Below, in pieces: positions 9,715 to 20,238 of a stretch of DNA of 64,000 nt. The notes beneath the pieces were generated by a model, which made no database searches, was not told the origin of the DNA, and saw only the letters and a list, made by a program, of their open reading frames with translations. The DNA is taken from contig NZ_CP062983.1 of assembly GCF_015500095.1 (NCBI RefSeq), positions 434,001-498,000 on the forward strand. The letters are read 5' to 3'. The first letter of the stretch is position 1. Each line of letters starts with the position of its first letter. Position numbers and translations under genes: made by a program. The stretch is from Phototrophicus methaneseepsis (GTDB lineage Bacteria; Chloroflexota; Anaerolineae; Aggregatilineales; Phototrophicaceae).

Positions 9715-10060
9715 TGAGCCACAGAGATATGATTACAGGTGGATGCAAGCAAAACGCCCTACGGACGCGTACAAGTCAGCGCATATGCATGTTATGATGC
9801 AGAGCACAACTCGTAAAATCCATTGTACGGGGCATTAGGATGTCCCGCAAGACACTTAGGTTAAGCTTTCCTGATGAGGGCAAACCTGGCATGGACTAGC
9901 TTTGTCATATATTCAGGAACCAGCAAGCCATATTACAAAGCCAAAACTCTGACTAAACTGGCACCTTCCATGAGTGGTCATTTTGGCGGGCCTCTTTTAG
10001 AATAGATTTGCTTGGATCATATCCAATCAGCGAATGTCGGTAGCAGCCTAGGGATAACCC
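9715..10060. other. Divergent intergenic region, no gene seen
   Basis: 346 bases separate two outward-facing genes and must hold both promoters. I see no stable hairpin, tRNA or long repeat; no consensus promoter stands out. Confidence 0.4.
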
Positions 10061-12458: not shown

Positions 12459-15362
12459 TTATTCGTCGCCCTGCTCATCATCCTGGCGTTCCCGACGGCG
12501 CTTAAGCAAGCTGCCAACTGTGCTATCCTGGCTGGTGCGGTCTGGTGGTAAATTAAACTCAGGATCGCGCGAGGAAGGACGACGCGGAGCCTGGGGCCGG
12601 GGCTGCTGGTCAGCTTCTGTACTGCGCCGTTGGTCACGCCGCTGGCGCAACCGCGCGACAGTGGCATCTTCTTCGCCTGCGCCAGTCCGGTTGCGCGCCC
12701 GTGAACGGGCATCCCGCAATGTAGACAGCCGCTCATCTGGCACAGCAACGCTGCGTCCTCTGTTCATCCAGTCGCCCAGGCGCTGCAAGTCACTGCGCGT
12801 GATGATCAGGCGGCGCACAGCAATATCAAAGGGCAGCAACATCATCGCGGCCAGCAACAGCCAGGGCCACAGCGGCAGCGCGGCTGTGCGGAATTCTTCA
12901 CTGGGGACGAATGCCTCTTCTGGCACGGCTTCTAACGACTGCCCCCCGGTTAAGGCTGCAATGCTCACCAGCAAGCCTTCATCAGGCTCCGGTTGTGTAT
13001 ATTCCGGCGAATAACTCTGGACCCAGCCGTTCACCTCGTTGAAGCTGGTCTCCTCGCCATCCACGAGGCCGCTCCCTGTAATCGTCAGGAAGTAAGCACC
13101 TTCTTCTGTCGGGCGGAAGGCCCCTTCATAACGCCCCGGCGCGACCTGAGACAGCCGGACTGTACGCCCGGTGTTGGTTGGGTCTAGCAAGGCAGCTTCT
13201 AGCTGGAGGTTATTCAAGAAGCCACCAACTTCATCCTGTGCATCGACGATAATACGCGCCATCTCATCCTGCATGACGATGCGCGTCTCGATATTGTTGG
13301 TGGCGCTCTCCGTAATGGACCAGGTGACGACCTGCCCCCAGAAGCGCACAAAATTATCCCAGGTCACCCAATTGCTGGCCCAGCGGGCAGTGGCATCGCT
13401 GGTAAACGCGACAGAACGCCCCAGTCCATACTGCCATGTCGCCAACAGCGGATCGCTGTTTGGTTCCGGGCCGCGTAAGACCACTGTCGCCAGGTCTTTT
13501 TCCGTCGTGGCGATGTAACCACTGTAAGGCGGTAGGGCGGTGATGCCATCCAGAATGGGGCTGTTAGATGTACGAACCGCTGTGAAGTCGCCTTCTTCGA
13601 TGAAGGTACGGCTAGCAAGGACAGTCTCCAGGGCGAAGACGTTCGGTATCTGGCCTACATCCGCCACCTGATGATAATTACCATCACCCACACGCGCCAT
13701 CTCTTGCAAGAATGCGGGTGGATTACTGCCAATGGCGATCACGGATGTGGTCACGTCGTGCTGCTCATAAAGCTGCTGTGTGCGCTCCACCAGCCCTTCT
13801 GGATTGCTGCCGCCATCCGTCAGCAAGATAATGTGCTTGCGCTGGCTCGGCTCCTGGAGGATGTCGCGCTCGACAAGGCTTAGCCCTGCGCCAATATCCG
13901 TACCGCCACCGCTGCGCAGCGTGGCAACCAGGCGTTGTAATTCACGCTCATCATACACAGGCTGGAAAGGTGCCACCCACGCCCCCCCCGTATCAAAAGT
14001 GCCGACAGCGGCCCGGTCTGTGGGCTGCAAAAAGCTGATAGACAGATCAATTGCACGCTTCGCCAGCTCAATATTGGCGACGCCGCTGGTACCGACCGCC
14101 GCCATACTGCCGCTGCGATCAATCAAATAAGCGATCGTGAGCTGTGGCAAGCGCTGTTGATCCCGAATTTGCATTTCAACAGGCAGCGCGTCCTCGATGG
14201 GCGTGTCGTAATAACGCCCTGGCCCGTAACTATCCGGCCCGCCGATGAAAACCAGCCCACCCCCTAGCTCGCTCACGTAGCTATCAAGGCGTTCCATCTG
14301 ACGCTGTGTAAAATCCGTCGCGGGCACATTCGCCACGATGATGCTTTTATAATCGGCCAATCCCGCGCTCTCCGGCGAGAGGTTCGCTGGCGTGGTGACG
14401 TCCACATTCAGCCCGGCCTCTTGCAATGCAGGCAGCAATTGTGTGATTTCTGCTTCCTCACTGGCGACGAGCAGCACACGCGGCGGCCCCACCACCTGCG
14501 TGAAGGAGGCAAGCTGGTTATTCTGGCTGAAGCCATCTTCATTGAGCACATCAATGCGCGCGCTGAAGTTCAAAAAGCCAGATTGCGCCCCAGATTGCGT
14601 CAGCGTATAGCGTGTGATGCCTTGCGGCAGTTGTATATCTTCTTCCCGGATGAGGTTGCCATTGGCATACAGCGAAAGCCGAGCGGGCGTTTCTAAGGCG
14701 GATTCAATGCTGACGGAGAGGTCAAAATCCTGCGATTCAATGACGCGGCTGGGCGCTTCAAGGTCGATGATGCGCACATCAGCCATTTGCTGGCGGAAGA
14801 AGGGGACATAGCTAATTTCAATGCCAGCCGCTTCGGCCAGACGAGCTTTAGCCTCAGCATCGCCAATCGTCTCCTGCCCATCGGATAGGATAATGATGCG
14901 GCGGCGTGCATCCGCCGGGAAGATCGCAATCGCGGTCTGAATGGCCTCTGCGATGTTGGTGTTCCCTGTTAATACCTGAGAACGCAAATTAGGCGGTGCT
15001 TCCGTCAATGTGTTGAAAGCCCGCTCCGGCGCGACATCTGCACCAAAGACCACAACCGCCCATTCGTCATCTGTGGGCTTGTTGCTAATCGCTTCCTGAA
15101 TATAGGCAAGCTGTGCTTCCTGCATCTCAGTGCCGACGCTGTCGGAGACATCCACAAGGAAAACGACAGACTGCTTTTCCACAGCGCGCACCAGTTGCAG
15201 CCCGCCAATAGCGAGGATCACCAGCAGTAGCAGGACGGAGCGTATCACCAGGCTGACCACATCGCGCCGCCTACGGAAGCTGTAGCGCGGCCAGCCAATC
15301 ACCCACGTCAGCGGCAGGGCCAGCAGCAAAATCAGGAAGAGAACCGGGTTCGCAATGCTCAT
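12459..15362 (-). CDS. Large membrane protein with two vWA domains and a GATase-like domain
   Basis: 967 residues. Two N-terminal membrane helices (about 5-22 and 37-58) precede a first vWA domain with the MIDAS-type DVSDS near 72. A beta-rich region leads to a class I glutamine-amidotransferase-like fold (SIIVANVPATDF, LGGGLVFIGGPDSYGPG, about 300-390). A second vWA domain follows, with a full MIDAS motif DRSGS near 416 and a later TDGGS. A further membrane helix (LWPWLLLAAMMLLPFDIAV) lies near 835, followed by a disordered, arginine-rich C-terminal tail. This architecture belongs to MoxR-associated vWA proteins thought to act as metal-dependent adaptors in envelope or complex assembly. It is the last gene of the MoxR operon, 230 bases after the BatA-like gene. 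Confidence 0.88.
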   Translation of the reverse strand: MSIANPVLFLILLLALPLTWVIGWPRYSFRRRRDVVSLVIRSVLLLLVILAIGGLQLVRAVEKQSVVFLVDVSDSVGTEMQEAQLAYIQEAISNKPTDDEWAVVVFGADVAPERAFNTLTEAPPNLRSQVLTGNTNIAEAIQTAIAIFPADARRRIIILSDGQETIGDAEAKARLAEAAGIEISYVPFFRQQMADVRIIDLEAPSRVIESQDFDLSVSIESALETPARLSLYANGNLIREEDIQLPQGITRYTLTQSGAQSGFLNFSARIDVLNEDGFSQNNQLASFTQVVGPPRVLLVASEEAEITQLLPALQEAGLNVDVTTPANLSPESAGLADYKSIIVANVPATDFTQRQMERLDSYVSELGGGLVFIGGPDSYGPGRYYDTPIEDALPVEMQIRDQQRLPQLTIAYLIDRSGSMAAVGTSGVANIELAKRAIDLSISFLQPTDRAAVGTFDTGGAWVAPFQPVYDERELQRLVATLRSGGGTDIGAGLSLVERDILQEPSQRKHIILLTDGGSNPEGLVERTQQLYEQHDVTTSVIAIGSNPPAFLQEMARVGDGNYHQVADVGQIPNVFALETVLASRTFIEEGDFTAVRTSNSPILDGITALPPYSGYIATTEKDLATVVLRGPEPNSDPLLATWQYGLGRSVAFTSDATARWASNWVTWDNFVRFWGQVVTWSITESATNNIETRIVMQDEMARIIVDAQDEVGGFLNNLQLEAALLDPTNTGRTVRLSQVAPGRYEGAFRPTEEGAYFLTITGSGLVDGEETSFNEVNGWVQSYSPEYTQPEPDEGLLVSIAALTGGQSLEAVPEEAFVPSEEFRTAALPLWPWLLLAAMMLLPFDIAVRRLIITRSDLQRLGDWMNRGRSVAVPDERLSTLRDARSRARNRTGAGEEDATVARLRQRRDQRRSTEADQQPRPQAPRRPSSRDPEFNLPPDRTSQDSTVGSLLKRRRERQDDEQGDE

Positions 15363-15592: not shown

Positions 15593-17533
15593 TCATCTCA
15601 AAGCGGTGCTGCGCTGGAGCCGCCGCCCGACGACCTGCCCCACAGTCGGCACGCGCAGCCGTTGATGATAAACAACCCACTCGATCAAAAGCACAAGCAG
15701 AGCCAACGCCGCCAGATACGGCCAGAACTCATCCAGGCCAAGCTGCGCCTCTTCACGCGCGGCCTGGTCAATCGTCCCGCCGCCCAGTGTAATCGCAGCA
15801 GGGCTCACGGGCGTGATGTCGCTTTCGTTCGTCCCAAAGAGCGTCACAGCCACTTGCTGCGTCTGCATGACAGCATCCGCACCGAGCACATCCACCGTAT
15901 AGATACCGGGTTCGTTCACATCTGCAAAGAGCACTTCATCTTCTTCCGCTGGCAGAGTAGTGCTATCGCCTCCGGGTGATGTCACGCGAACGGTCGTGGT
16001 TCCTAACGGCGCACTGATGCGCAGCGGCGTACCCACCATGACGCTATCTTCTACGCCAACCAGATTAGCCGGCGTGAACCATTCCACCACGTTCGCCATG
16101 AGTACAGGCCAGGCAATGCGCAAGCTCAGGTCACTATCGCGCAGATCAAACGGCAAAATAACCACCTGTCGCCCACGGTCGTCGCCTGCAATTAATAAGG
16201 GATCATCGTCAACCGTCACGAGCGTATCAGCCCATGACAGGCCACCCAGGCGGGTATATTGCCGCAGATTGAGCGTATCTATATCGACATAGGTCAGCAG
16301 GGGATGCGCTGGCAGCAGCGTTGTGATCTGTCCCACATCCTCAACAGCTTCACCGTGAATGAACAGGCTGCTACTCGTTGGCGGGTTGATGATGAGCATA
16401 TCTGCTTCCGGCAGCACATCCGGCAGCCACCCATCGAAGATGTAGAAGTCGTAGGGCTGGTTGGGCAGGGTTGTCTCGTTTACGTTGCCCCGGAAGGTTT
16501 GCACACCGGGCAAGGATCGCAGCACCTGGTCCAGGAAGATATTGTCAGCTTCCGAGAGCAGCAAGACGCGCCGTGTACGGGCCTCACTGGCGACATTGAC
16601 CGCGCTGTTATCCAATACCAGATAATCCGTGACGCTGTCATCAAAGGTCAGGCTGGCCTGAACAGTGGTGAAGTCCTGTTCAATAGGCGGGAAATTAAAG
16701 GCGCGCTGGCTGCGGGCGGAAATCGTCTGTGTGTTGCTCTCCCACAAAACCCCATCCAGCCGGATGCTCATGGTCACTTCAGCGGCGCTGCTGCCGAAGT
16801 TCGTCGCCTGGGCGAACAGCTGCGGCGCATTGCCCGGTTCAGCGCGGGTTGCCAGCGCCGTTACGGCGATATTGTCGCTGCTGCTGCCAATCGGCACAAT
16901 CACAGGCGCGGGGATATTCTCCGGCAGTTGGCCGATCTCACCAATGCCGCCGTCCGTGATAATCACCATGGTGAACAGGTCGGCATCCTGCGCCCCTGCT
17001 GCCGCTAATGTGAGCGCCGTCTCCCAATCACCGCCGCCGCTGCCCGGTTCAGCAGCACCAATCGCCGCACGCAGTTCTGTGAGGCTGTTGGTATATTCCA
17101 CCAAGATATGGCTTTCATCGCCCACACGTATCACGGACATTTCGTCCCCTGGGCCAAGCTCCCCAGCCAATGATAATGCTTCATCGCGGGCCTGCTCGAA
17201 GCGTGTCTCGCCACCTTCGCCATCGGTCGCCCGCATACTGGCGCTGGCATCCAGCAAAATGACCGTCTTGCCAGAGATAATGCGTGGCACGATCTGTGCT
17301 GGGCGCACCAAGGCCAGCACCAGCAGCAGCAAAATCAGCAGTTGCAATAAGAGCAGCAAGTTACGCTTCAGGCGCTGCCAGGGAGTATTGGCTTCCGTAT
17401 CCTGGACGACCTGCTGCCACAAAAAGTTACTGCTGATGAAGACCTCGCGCCGCCTTAGCCGCAGCATGTACAGCAAAATGATGGGAATGCCGATCAGCAG
17501 GCCGAGCAAAGCGAGTGGCGCTAAAATAGTCAT
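15593..17533 (-). CDS. BatA-like vWA membrane protein
   Basis: 646 residues. The N-terminus MTILAPLALLGLLIGIPI plus LLLLQLLILLLLVLALVRPA near 60 is the two-helix hairpin of BatA-type proteins. A vWA domain follows with MIDAS DASAS near 93 and ITDGG near 195. The middle is beta-rich, and a last helix (FWPYLAALALLVLLIEWVVYH) sits near 610. AGAGGGTG precedes the ATG. These proteins work with MoxR ATPases and DUF58 partners. Its start is now 639 bases from the end of the DUF58 gene because a GxxExxY cassette has entered the gap. Confidence 0.88.
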   Translation of the reverse strand: MTILAPLALLGLLIGIPIILLYMLRLRRREVFISSNFLWQQVVQDTEANTPWQRLKRNLLLLLQLLILLLLVLALVRPAQIVPRIISGKTVILLDASASMRATDGEGGETRFEQARDEALSLAGELGPGDEMSVIRVGDESHILVEYTNSLTELRAAIGAAEPGSGGGDWETALTLAAAGAQDADLFTMVIITDGGIGEIGQLPENIPAPVIVPIGSSSDNIAVTALATRAEPGNAPQLFAQATNFGSSAAEVTMSIRLDGVLWESNTQTISARSQRAFNFPPIEQDFTTVQASLTFDDSVTDYLVLDNSAVNVASEARTRRVLLLSEADNIFLDQVLRSLPGVQTFRGNVNETTLPNQPYDFYIFDGWLPDVLPEADMLIINPPTSSSLFIHGEAVEDVGQITTLLPAHPLLTYVDIDTLNLRQYTRLGGLSWADTLVTVDDDPLLIAGDDRGRQVVILPFDLRDSDLSLRIAWPVLMANVVEWFTPANLVGVEDSVMVGTPLRISAPLGTTTVRVTSPGGDSTTLPAEEDEVLFADVNEPGIYTVDVLGADAVMQTQQVAVTLFGTNESDITPVSPAAITLGGGTIDQAAREEAQLGLDEFWPYLAALALLVLLIEWVVYHQRLRVPTVGQVVGRRLQRSTALR

Positions 17534-17571: not shown

Positions 17572-17608
17572 CAACACAGAGACACAGAGGCGCAGAGGCG
17601 CAAAGAAA
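17572..17608 (+). repeat. CACAGAG-type inverted repeat, left arm
   Basis: Begins CAACACAGAGACACAGAGG and continues with two further GCAGAGG/GCAAAG units, an internally repetitive, purine-rich sequence. Its partner is at 18100-18136. Confidence 0.75.
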
Positions 17609-17703
17609 AGGAATGAGAGAAGGGCCTCTGTCAACAGCCAGCCGTAAACACGCAACATATCGTACCTATTGCCACCGTCATCAACACAGGAGCCATTATA
17701 AGC

Positions 17704-18081
17704 ATGATTGAAAACCAGATCAGTGCAGGTATCGTTGATGCTGCTATTGTTGTCCACCGGACTCTTGGCGGCCCCGGTTTGCTGGAATCCGTCTATGAAG
17801 AAGCTCTCGCTTATGAATTGGCTGAGCGTGGTTTTGATGTTCAACGGCAGAAATTGATACCCATCTCGTATAAAGGTCATGAGTTAGGGACGCCCCTGCG
17901 TCTGGATTTACTGGTTAATCGTACGGTGGTTGTCGAATGCAAGGCGACGACGCACTATAACACGATCTATGAAGCACAAGTCCTGACCTATTTGCGCCTC
18001 ATCAACTTAAGACTCGGTCTTGTCATTAACTTTGGCGAACGTCTTGTTAAAACTGGTATTCATCGCGTTATCAACAATTAA
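17704..18081 (+). CDS. GxxExxY family protein (PD-(D/E)XK-like)
   Basis: 125 residues, the usual family length. The name-giving motif is GLLESVY near residue 26. A nuclease-like core follows: RLDLLV (Asp) and VVVECKAT (E-x-K) near 70-80, matching the PD-(D/E)XK superfamily to which PF13366 is assigned. The biochemical function of the family is not established. An AGGAG ribosome site lies 11 bases before the ATG. The gene is complete, so it is under selection or recently arrived. It is antisense to, and splits, a MoxR/DUF58/vWA operon, so it must be expressed from a promoter inside the cassette. It is the clearest case in the window of one gene carried in by a repeat-bounded unit. Confidence 0.88.
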   Translation: MIENQISAGIVDAAIVVHRTLGGPGLLESVYEEALAYELAERGFDVQRQKLIPISYKGHELGTPLRLDLLVNRTVVVECKATTHYNTIYEAQVLTYLRLINLRLGLVINFGERLVKTGIHRVINN

Positions 18082-18099
18082 AATGTGTCACTCTCTTTA

Positions 18100-18136
18100 T
18101 TTCTCTGTGCCTCTGAGCCTTTGTGTCTCTGTGTTG
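18100..18136 (-). repeat. CACAGAG-type inverted repeat, right arm
   Basis: Read on the minus strand it begins CAACACAGAGACACAAAGG and matches the left arm at 17572-17608 with about four differences over 37 bases. The gene between the arms ends 18 bases before it. Confidence 0.75.
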
Positions 18137-18172: not shown

Positions 18173-19093
18173 CTACTTCACCAGCCCCAGGCGGCGCAGA
18201 TCATACAGAATCACACTCTCGAAGGGCGTATCGGTCTGTGCCAGCACATAATGGACGCCACGCCGTGCACACGTATCGCGTAGTTCATCCAGCCATGCGC
18301 GCAGCCGCTGCTCATAAATCGCGCGCATCGTCGCATCAATCGTCACCTCTTGCGGACGGTCCGTTTCAACATCGACCAGCCGCAGATCGCCGCCCAGAGG
18401 AGGCGTCATCTCATCCGGCGAGAGAATATGCACCAGCACCACCTCATGCCCCTTAGCCAACAGCCGATTCAACCCTTCCAGGTAACCACCTGGGGAGAAC
18501 ATATCGCTCATCAAGATGACCAACCCGGCGCGACGCTCTCGCAGGGCGAAGTTCGCCAACGTCTTGTTGAGGTCGGTAGTCCCTATTGAACGCAGTTGAT
18601 GTAGATAGCGCAGCATAGCGACACTGCGACCCCGACCCCGCGCCGGCCCATAGAGCTGTGGGGTCCCTTCAGCCAAGGTCGAAATTAGCAGGCGGTCCCC
18701 GGTACTGAGCGCCATATAAGCCAGGGCAGCACATAATCGCTGGGCATAAAGCAGTTTGTGGTGGGCGCGGTCACCACCTTCTTCATCCCCTCGCGGCCAA
18801 TCCATGCTGCCGCTCACATCCAGCAGCAGGTGCACAGCCAGGTCTTCTTCATCTTCTAATAGCTTGATGTAAGGCCGTTCCAGGCGAGCATACACATTCC
18901 AGTCGAGCTTGCGCAGGTCATCGCCGGGGGAATAATTGCGATAATCAGCGAACTCGATGCTCGTCCCGCGCTTGACGCTGCGACGCTCACCCTTCATAGC
19001 GCCAGATCGCATCTTGCTAGCAACCAGCATCAACGGGTCCAGCCGTCGCCGAACCGCTTCCGGCAGTAATTGCGTCTCCTGGGCTTCAGTCAT
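18173..19093 (-). CDS. DUF58 domain protein with vWA-type fold
   Basis: 306 residues. The DUF58 signature FADYRNYSPGDDLRKLDW is at about 48-65 and the MIDAS-like DVSGSM at about 92. Proteins of this family are encoded next to MoxR ATPases and are thought to be their substrates or adaptors. There is no membrane segment. It is the second gene of the operon, 137 bases after moxR; that gap contains a palindromic repeat. Its start ATG at 19091-19093 follows GAGCGAAA. Confidence 0.92.
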   Translation of the reverse strand: MTEAQETQLLPEAVRRRLDPLMLVASKMRSGAMKGERRSVKRGTSIEFADYRNYSPGDDLRKLDWNVYARLERPYIKLLEDEEDLAVHLLLDVSGSMDWPRGDEEGGDRAHHKLLYAQRLCAALAYMALSTGDRLLISTLAEGTPQLYGPARGRGRSVAMLRYLHQLRSIGTTDLNKTLANFALRERRAGLVILMSDMFSPGGYLEGLNRLLAKGHEVVLVHILSPDEMTPPLGGDLRLVDVETDRPQEVTIDATMRAIYEQRLRAWLDELRDTCARRGVHYVLAQTDTPFESVILYDLRRLGLVK

Positions 19094-19230: not shown

Positions 19231-20238
19231 CTATTTTTTGACCGTCTTGAGCAGATCATCCACGATGCTATCGGTACTGATGCCCTCTGCCTGCCCTTCG
19301 AAGTTGAGCAAAATCCGGTGCCGCAGTGCAGATGGCGCCACAGCCGCCACATCGTCATAAGCCACGTTATAACGACCATCCAGCAGCGCGTTCACCTTCG
19401 CGCCGATGATGAGGGCCTGCGCACCTCGCGGCGACGACCCGACACGGACGTATTGGCGAGACATGGCTGTCGATAGCTCACTATCAGGATGCGTGGCGAC
19501 GACCAGCCGAGCCACATACTGGCTGACGTGCGTCGGGATGGGCGTGCTGAGCGCGAGTTCGCCCATCTGGATAACCTGCTGCGCGTTGGCGACAGTTTGC
19601 GCTTCTGGCGCGTCAACGCCCGTGGTGCGGTCAAGGATCGCCACCAGATCATCAACGGAGGGGAACGTCACATTCACCTTGAACAAGAAGCGGTCAAGCT
19701 GTGCTTCTGGCAGGGGATAAGTGCCTTCCATTTCCAGCGGGTTTTGTGTTGCCAGCACGAAGAAAGGCTTTTCCAGGTCATAGCGCCGTCCCGCAACAGT
19801 GACTGTCTTTTCCTGCATGGCTTCTAGCATGGCGGATTGTGTCTTGGGGGTCGCGCGGTTGATTTCATCCGCCAGCACTAGGTTGGCGAAGATCGGCCCG
19901 GCCTGAAAACGGAACTCACGACGGCCTTCTTCAGTCTCTTCCAGGATGTCCGTACCCACAATATCAGCAGGCATGAGATCCGGCGTAAACTGAATGCGTG
20001 AGAAGTTCATATCAAGCACATCGGCCAGGGTACGGATGAGCATCGTCTTCCCCAGGCCAGGGACGCCTTCCAGCAGCGCATGACGCCCCGCCAGAATACA
20101 GATCAAGGCACTGCGGACGACTTCGTGCTGGCCCACAATCACTTTGCCAACTTCGCGCTCGATAGCCTGCGCCAGGGCGCTGAATTCATCAAGCTGCATA
20201 TGCGGCGGAGAAGGCGGCATCGCCTGGGCTGAAGTCAT
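19231..20238 (-). CDS. MoxR family AAA+ ATPase
   Basis: 335 residues. Walker A GVPGLGKT near 58, Walker B LADEINR near 123, sensor I ATQNP near 164, and the characteristic helix-2-insert segment QFTPDLMPADIVG before Walker B place it in the MoxR branch of AAA+ proteins. These chaperone-like ATPases help mature metal-containing or multisubunit complexes together with vWA partners. It leads the operon with the DUF58, BatA-like and vWA/GATase genes. A TATAAT-like element on the minus strand at 20278-20283 lies about 40 bases upstream of the start. Confidence 0.94.
   Translation of the reverse strand: MTSAQAMPPSPPHMQLDEFSALAQAIEREVGKVIVGQHEVVRSALICILAGRHALLEGVPGLGKTMLIRTLADVLDMNFSRIQFTPDLMPADIVGTDILEETEEGRREFRFQAGPIFANLVLADEINRATPKTQSAMLEAMQEKTVTVAGRRYDLEKPFFVLATQNPLEMEGTYPLPEAQLDRFLFKVNVTFPSVDDLVAILDRTTGVDAPEAQTVANAQQVIQMGELALSTPIPTHVSQYVARLVVATHPDSELSTAMSRQYVRVGSSPRGAQALIIGAKVNALLDGRYNVAYDDVAAVAPSALRHRILLNFEGQAEGISTDSIVDDLLKTVKK

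Follow-up and report, generated by a model that had tools for sequence, protein, structure and literature searches.

A GxxExxY gene between inverted iteron arms in a MoxR operon: a candidate small mobile element

A 565-bp unit spanning positions 17572–18136 of the window (i.e., the whole 64,000-nucleotide stretch of Phototrophicus methaneseepsis DNA analyzed here) encloses one GxxExxY gene between two inverted arms, and iteron-armed GxxExxY genes are a real, widespread architecture over many bacterial phyla. Our best explanation, to which we assign a probability of about 0.6, is that the unit is a small mobile element that has no DDE or Y1 transposase and whose PD-(D/E)XK protein would recognize and cut its own arms. 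Iteron binding, DNA cutting, and the route of movement are what we infer, for an element class in which one PD-(D/E)XK (GxxExxY) gene lies between two inverted arms, each with three or four short iterons. (i) Recognition: the GxxExxY protein would recognize the iterons of its own unit and cut DNA there. (ii) Movement: cutting would lead to the copying of unit-bearing DNA into intergenic gaps, chiefly within operons, or to its exchange there, either by homing-like copying or by transposition without target duplication. (iii) Decay: loss of the gene would leave a two-arm mini-unit.

A wider reading, which we advance tentatively and at somewhat less than even odds, is that these units form a new minimal class of mobile DNA, in which one gene (GxxExxY, GIY-YIG, or four-helix-bundle 23S-IVP) sits between inverted iteron arms, protein and word co-evolve as a recognition code, and the units turn over in operon gaps across phyla and leave gene-less hairpin remnants. 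Were it true, a single life-style would unite three protein families whose roles are unknown or poorly understood.

The armed unit and its protein

The left arm (17572–17608, plus strand) and the inverted right arm (18100–18136, minus strand) are each 37 nt long, lie 491 nt apart, and pair at 33 of 37 positions (89% complementary). Each arm contains four tandem 7-bp iterons at a spacing of 8 bp, whose limits were taken directly from the window sequence. On the left, these are CACAGAG (17575–17581), CACAGAG (17583–17589), CGCAGAG (17591–17597), and CGCAAAG (17599–17605), in that order; on the right, the plus strand carries CTCTGTG (18103–18109), CTCTGAG (18111–18117), CTTTGTG (18119–18125), and CTCTGTG (18127–18133), i.e., CACAGAG, CACAAAG, CTCAGAG, and CACAGAG when the other strand is read inward. 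The initial annotation had described the inverted repeats (37 nt, about 33 matches), the opposite-strand GxxExxY gene, and the co-oriented MoxR/DUF58/vWA operon, all of which were confirmed at their positions; the tandem four-iteron make-up of the arms is an addition to it. It had also placed the gene ‘exactly between’ the repeats, which is correct in that the gene is enclosed, but the fit is loose, with 95 nt from the left arm to the ATG and 18 nt from the stop codon to the right arm.

The GxxExxY gene (17704–18081, plus strand), which encodes a 125-residue PD-(D/E)XK-type protein, is antisense within the co-oriented MoxR/DUF58/BatA operon. The flanking operon genes, both on the minus strand, are BatA/VWA (15593–17533), whose start codon is separated from the unit by 38 bp, and, on the opposite side, DUF58 (18173–19093), whose stop codon lies 36 bp from it. 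The operon also includes a MoxR-type ATPase gene (AAA_3; 19231–20238, minus strand), and a VWA gene (12459–15362) is a further minus-strand neighbor.

The arms stand out from their surroundings. Only one ungapped inverted pair matching at 33 or more of 37 positions within ~1 kb occurs in the 16 kb between window positions 10001 and 26000, and none in five block shuffles. A detector built for this architecture, which looks for three tandem 7-mers per side with matching words and calls arms at a threshold score of 80, found a single pair of three-iteron arms in the entire 64-kb window, namely this unit, and none in one shuffle. Nor did the same detector call any pair in 400 kb of the window’s own genome (20 stretches of 20 kb, two of them placed on known arm sites), and the window’s GxxExxY gene is the sole PF13366 match in that 5.63-Mb genome. 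Searching it for CTCTGTGTCTCTGTG with up to two mismatches returned 22 matches, whereas the reversed control gave 13. Arms of this class, standing alone or at one site doublet-like, and all lacking a GxxExxY gene, occur near positions 1238084, 5510360, 4610060, 5079305, and 5290611 (L006, L007, L018, L020, and L003, respectively).

Profile matches make the window protein a clear member of the GxxExxY family, scoring 136.1 bits against TIGR04256 (E = 6.5e-40; curated cut-off 35) and 129.5 bits against PF13366, PDDEXK_3 (E = 9.9e-38; curated cut-off 22). It is encoded by the unit’s only ORF, for which a Pfam scan returned PDDEXK_3 and no other family at E 0.001, i.e., no DDE and no Y1/HUH transposase, in line with the absence of a transposase noted initially. 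An AlphaFold2 model (pLDDT 96.5, pTM 0.90) searched with Foldseek against the PDB gave one match below 0.001, 4ic1 (SSO0001; E = 4.2e-4), which we take to be a Cas4 protein, followed by 4r5q (named Cas4), LHK-Exo, and lambda exonuclease. VIA-align Z scores were 9.3 for 4ic1, 8.7 for 3ijm (restriction-endonuclease-like), and 6.9 for Hjc. The D...E-x-K signature of PD-(D/E)XK enzymes, read earlier from this one sequence, is borne out across 109 sequences, with D68 unchanged in all and E78 and K80 each conserved in at least 90%, and the predicted fold agrees with it. Thus, both fold and catalytic motif place the protein in the PD-(D/E)XK superfamily as a predicted nuclease. PADLOC returned nothing but Cas4 (E = 0.04), and a sequence search against solved structures gave three unrelated matches, all with E above 0.6. 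With one query protein, the family was matched in eight of 72,556 plasmid records and in none of 50,697 phage records.

Iteron arms and their proteins across phyla

We sampled the family by searching TIGR04256 in 61 genomes of relatives, the window’s own included (27 matched), and in 400 genomes of the phylum (76 matched), and by a profile search of genome contigs, from which the best 80 of 574 loci, from many phyla, were taken; weak family members are under-sampled because the loci chosen were the best family matches. A total of 140 loci were read, 139 of which held a match (all except L050), with 142 matches altogether. A flank was missing in six (L041, L045, L095, L143, L162, and L185), leaving 136 copies with both flanks, a set in which L040 is the window’s own unit and five copies are fragments, from L049 and L090. 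Two loci of simple sequence (L135 and L160) were removed ahead of the tests on 78 loci.

Iteron arms scoring at least 80 flank 80 of the 136 copies, versus none of 479 ORFs of 80–250 codons on the same contigs; the other 56 copies (about 40%) fall below threshold. An earlier, plain inverted-repeat test reached a score of 20 in one of 483 neighboring ORFs, which is itself a 23S_rRNA_IVP (four-helix-bundle) gene. The expectation that GxxExxY genes elsewhere would carry the same CACAGAG repeats thus stands for the repeats but not for the word, which is locus-specific: CACAGAG, CGCCAAG, CGCAAAG, CACCGAG, CGCGAAT, CACGAAT, GCAGATT, ACAGGAT, ATCCGTG, and ACGGACT are among those seen. The outer boundary of the unit is sharp, and AAC or CAC often directly precedes the first iteron. 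Target-site duplications were not found above chance, with direct matches of at least 4 bp at 13 of 78 loci and ~14 expected. In the 55 loci of the genome-contig search in which orientation could be assessed, 37 genes are co-directional with both neighbors and four are antisense between co-oriented neighbors, like the window’s. An inverted-repeat scan of 360 kb of one genome (G460), made with no use of the protein, gave nine pairs versus four in a shuffled control; one of the nine corresponds to a GxxExxY unit, and the scan missed another GxxExxY copy in that stretch, which contains an internal stop. The paired three-iteron detector misses the arms of Flavobacterium units, since their second iteron pair begins ~12 bp after the first. 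GxxExxY genes also adjoin MoxR/DUF58 genes on four more contigs from other groups (L129, L144, L103, and L087), three of them at other operon junctions. In Sphingomonas, a GxxExxY gene (L225, 2983–3411) lies between fabD and fabG with gaps of 33 and 2 bp, which leave no space for arms.

The two arms of a locus belong together. Arm identity is 0.90 within loci versus 0.54 between them, a contrast biased by the choice of arms; in its unbiased version, the arm on each side was picked independently of the other side, and 98 of the 136 loci yielded both. In these, the mean match was 16.4 within and 8.1 between loci (highest of 5000 permutations, 9.58), the locus’s own partner was the single best of all arms in 35 of 98, and the direct orientation outscored the inverted one in 18 of 98. 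In 68 of 78 loci, the left and right arms share one iteron spacing (19 on average and at most 33 under permutation). The words nevertheless form one loose class, as 88 of 407 mismatched locus pairs score 85 or more.

Arm similarity also follows protein similarity, with rho = 0.47 over 3003 pairs and rho = 0.36 over the 1801 cross-phylum pairs (highest of 1000 permutations, 0.21). In six genomes with paralogues, proteins resemble each other no more closely within a genome (0.43; 49 pairs, drawn from 25 of 28 rows, with three fragment rows omitted) than between genomes (0.41), and armed paralogues of one genome mostly carry different words. Recent multiplication within a genome was considered and rejected, the top within-genome protein identity in the 49 pairs being 0.70. 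The equal spacing, the tracking of arm by protein, and the differing words of paralogues point to the GxxExxY protein as the arm-recognizing factor; on these sequence patterns, it probably recognizes the iterons of its own unit.

The same data bear on whether GxxExxY is instead a cargo gene, with arms that mark the termini of an element mobilized in trans by some other recombinase of the host. Such an arrangement would accommodate the gene-less mini-units, the two further protein families found between arms of like plan, and the fact that no unit shows movement through its own protein. However, the arm word correlates with the GxxExxY protein even across phyla, and words differ among copies of one genome, where a single trans-acting recombinase should impose one word; we regard this explanation as unlikely.

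One of those further families leads to a second alternative. The four-helix-bundle genes (TIGR02436, 23S-IVP) of relatives (L194–L223) have inverted iteron arms of another class, and 11 of the 27 loci scored reach or exceed the 99th percentile set by mismatched pairs. Since this is the family of the 23S intervening-sequence protein, and the general plan is the same, the arms might pair in the operon mRNA, where RNase III would remove the stem as in 23S rRNA intervening sequences, making the unit a neutral RNA insert. In Coxiella, RNase III excises the intervening sequence, which ends in inverted repeats, according to the excerpt available of its description (PMC4990558), and 37 of 55 units are sense relative to their surroundings. 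Paired RNA should favor wobble, but arm mismatches show no G-U preference (88 versus 86; 78 loci), and in 78 short gaps of Flavobacterium the bias is opposite (43 versus 70, p = 0.014). Moreover, a stem needs no repeated word within an arm, and pairing leaves the protein–word association unexplained. We rejected the stem model on the lack of wobble bias and consider an RNA-level origin of the arms improbable.

Turnover at two operon sites

Among the 30 BatA loci of the window’s own genome and its relatives, 18 DUF58|BatA junctions were resolved and 12 were not. Nine of the 18 are gene-less (19–199 bp), seven hold GxxExxY (the window’s included), and two hold another gene, so the empty versions of the operon site that the initial annotation had called for do exist. 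In one of the two (L061, genome G023), the junction gene is presumably Uma2-like and has no iteron arms. The window’s site is occupied in its sister genome G001 too, and in both the unit is antisense and keeps both arms; it is sense in the other seven genomes having both genes at the locus. Genome G005 retains GxxExxY at the site in a tight operon with no arms. Within one genus (g12), G036 lacks an insert (73 bp; 78–80% flank identity with the other two), G012 carries a CACAGAG unit, and G029 has a CGCAAAG-type unit, whose gene contains an in-frame TGA, next to a CACAGAG-type left arm common to G012; the flanks of G012 and G029 are 92–94% identical and their junctions 77%. In the tree of the GGPGLLES subfamily, 11 of 15 inner branches are open, so phylogeny does not settle descent at the MoxR site.

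A second site was followed in Flavobacterium, the genus of locus L105, downstream of a gene that we take from its sequence to be hemW, next to a presumptive ruvC. The query gene was present in 147 of the 150 genomes searched, 111 of the 147 were read, and 102 gaps after hemW were resolved. These contain GxxExxY (24), GIY-YIG (9), 36–200 bp (44), at most 35 bp (18), or other DNA (7), and the hemW stop codon is often inside or adjoining the unit end. At the GxxExxY units, iterons of the class point inward rather than outward on the left (51 versus 1) and on the right (50 versus 2). At least two inward iterons per side are likewise found in 20 of the 44 short gaps, versus none in the reverse arrangement and none after shuffling; the pattern for this oriented count was chosen after the gaps had been viewed, and the count replaced a weak plain inverted-repeat shuffle test, by which 27 of 63 and 7 of 44 short gaps were significant. 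Short hemW gaps with inward iterons on each side are gene-less mini-units. Overall, the iteron class occurs in 20 of the 44 and a second class (ATCYG) in 15, and 14 show neither, with overlap possible between classes. All nine GIY-YIG genes after hemW (L257, L261, L269, L281, L283, L287, L292, L306, and L307), one of which was checked and is PF01541, have inverted TTTCWGSATCT / AGATGCTGAA arms. The ruvC|hemW gap holds four-helix-bundle genes in 16 genomes and short gaps in 63, and the class differs, CAGT prevailing on the left side and ACTG on the right-hand side; none of these short gaps has the GxxExxY iteron class on both sides.

These distributions are also where a non-mobile reading has to be weighed, in which GxxExxY is a resident host or defense gene that is flanked by operators and is passed on by descent or lost rather than moving. 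Occupancy is in part inherited: GxxExxY identity at the hemW site tracks hemW identity (rho = 0.45; permutation maximum 0.37), the nearest relatives share the same gap state in 47 of 102 cases (shuffled mean 28, maximum 45), and a single protein lineage, 71–99% identical among the 23 copies compared out of 24, occupies the site. The first two of these observations indicate that hemW-site GxxExxY is partly inherited. The preference for sense over antisense between co-oriented neighbors (37 versus 4) and the persistence of armless members also suit a resident gene. Such a gene would, however, not be expected to be replaced among near relatives by a different unit standing beside the arm remnant of the first, as in G012 and G029. 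Gap content also differs in 3 of 11 pairs of Flavobacterium relatives at 0.90–0.95 hemW identity and in 91 of 166 at 0.85–0.90, and in five of the eight pairs examined, some of them chosen as extremes, unit identity exceeds that of each flanking gene (e.g., 0.97 versus 0.91 and 0.92). A purely resident gene is, in our judgment, quite improbable, and turnover at the DUF58|BatA and hemW sites, as read from sequence comparison, supports mobility. The earlier proposal of a self-recognizing, repeat-bounded unit is therefore favored in part: the protein–iteron association, the different words of paralogues, and turnover at two operon sites speak for it, while inherited occupancy and armless members speak against it.

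Known systems and possible uses

The closest parallel in layout is REPIN-RAYT. In the portions of two descriptions available (PMC3116915, PMC8266576), short inverted repeats flank one small gene, gene-less inverted doublets occur elsewhere in the genome, and the elements are extragenic, with several distinct copies per genome, each with its own repeat. GxxExxY units share all of this, i.e., a gene flanked by inverted repeats, gene-less inverted doublets elsewhere, an extragenic position, and several copies with their own word, although the window’s own genome has doublet-like or solo arms only. As far as those portions go, the RAYT protein is a Y1/HUH transposase, whereas the unit encodes a PD-(D/E)XK protein, and REPIN repeats are GTAG-tagged palindromes, whereas the unit has arms made of 7-bp iterons in series, with no GTAG; doublet copy number is also low in most genomes tested here. 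With no Y1 transposase and no GTAG palindromes, the unit is not a REPIN-RAYT member, though the layout works alike.

Other systems share fewer features. Insertion sequences with terminal inverted repeats and MITEs resemble the unit in their ends and in having gene-bearing and gene-less forms, but the unit has no DDE transposase and no target-site duplication, and its end word varies from copy to copy. Homing endonuclease elements are free-standing or intron-borne, and some are PD-(D/E)XK enzymes. They share with the unit a nuclease-type gene, occupied and empty site versions in relatives, and one protein lineage per site; the unit lies between two genes, possibly at a cut site of its own, rather than in an intron or intein, and is bounded by inverted iterons. 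The 23S rRNA intervening sequences, as far as the excerpt of PMC4990558 describes them, are likewise about 430–650 bp long, with one small ORF and terminal inverted repeats, and IVP genes located elsewhere than in rRNA are flanked by arms of similar layout. The unit differs in lying in a MoxR operon rather than in 23S rRNA, in encoding GxxExxY rather than a four-helix bundle, and in giving no sign of selection for RNA pairing. BrickBuilt MITEs of Porphyromonas were also compared and rejected, their ends being different in the excerpt available (PMC4596501).

No function is known for the widespread GxxExxY family. Among the matches listed in searches of the open-access literature, no function or flanking repeats were found for it; the excerpts returned name GxxExxY as an annotation beside a reverse transcriptase and in the gene table of an algal virus. 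The name PDDEXK_3 had no match in the open-access literature, where the iteron words gave, among the matches listed, only matches on animal tissue. The architecture is thus undescribed as far as open-access literature searches show.

If the arms are the substrate, each armed copy comes paired with a predicted binding site, which would open the function to direct testing, and the natural protein/word pairs would provide material for learning how a protein of ~125 residues recognizes DNA. Short inverted repeats in operon gaps of Flavobacterium, Litoribacter, and Nostoc would likewise be explained as mini-units or remnants. Doublets of CGCAAAG number 78 in Litoribacter (G463) versus 2 in the reversed control, partly as tandem arrays of mini-units, and doublets number 24 versus 2 in Nostoc (G461); in four other genomes, the counts against control are 9/0, 6/0, 5/6, and 2/6. 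At two Litoribacter loci (L406 and L407, both in G463), gene-less mini-units stand in tandem with periods of ~117 and 185 bp.
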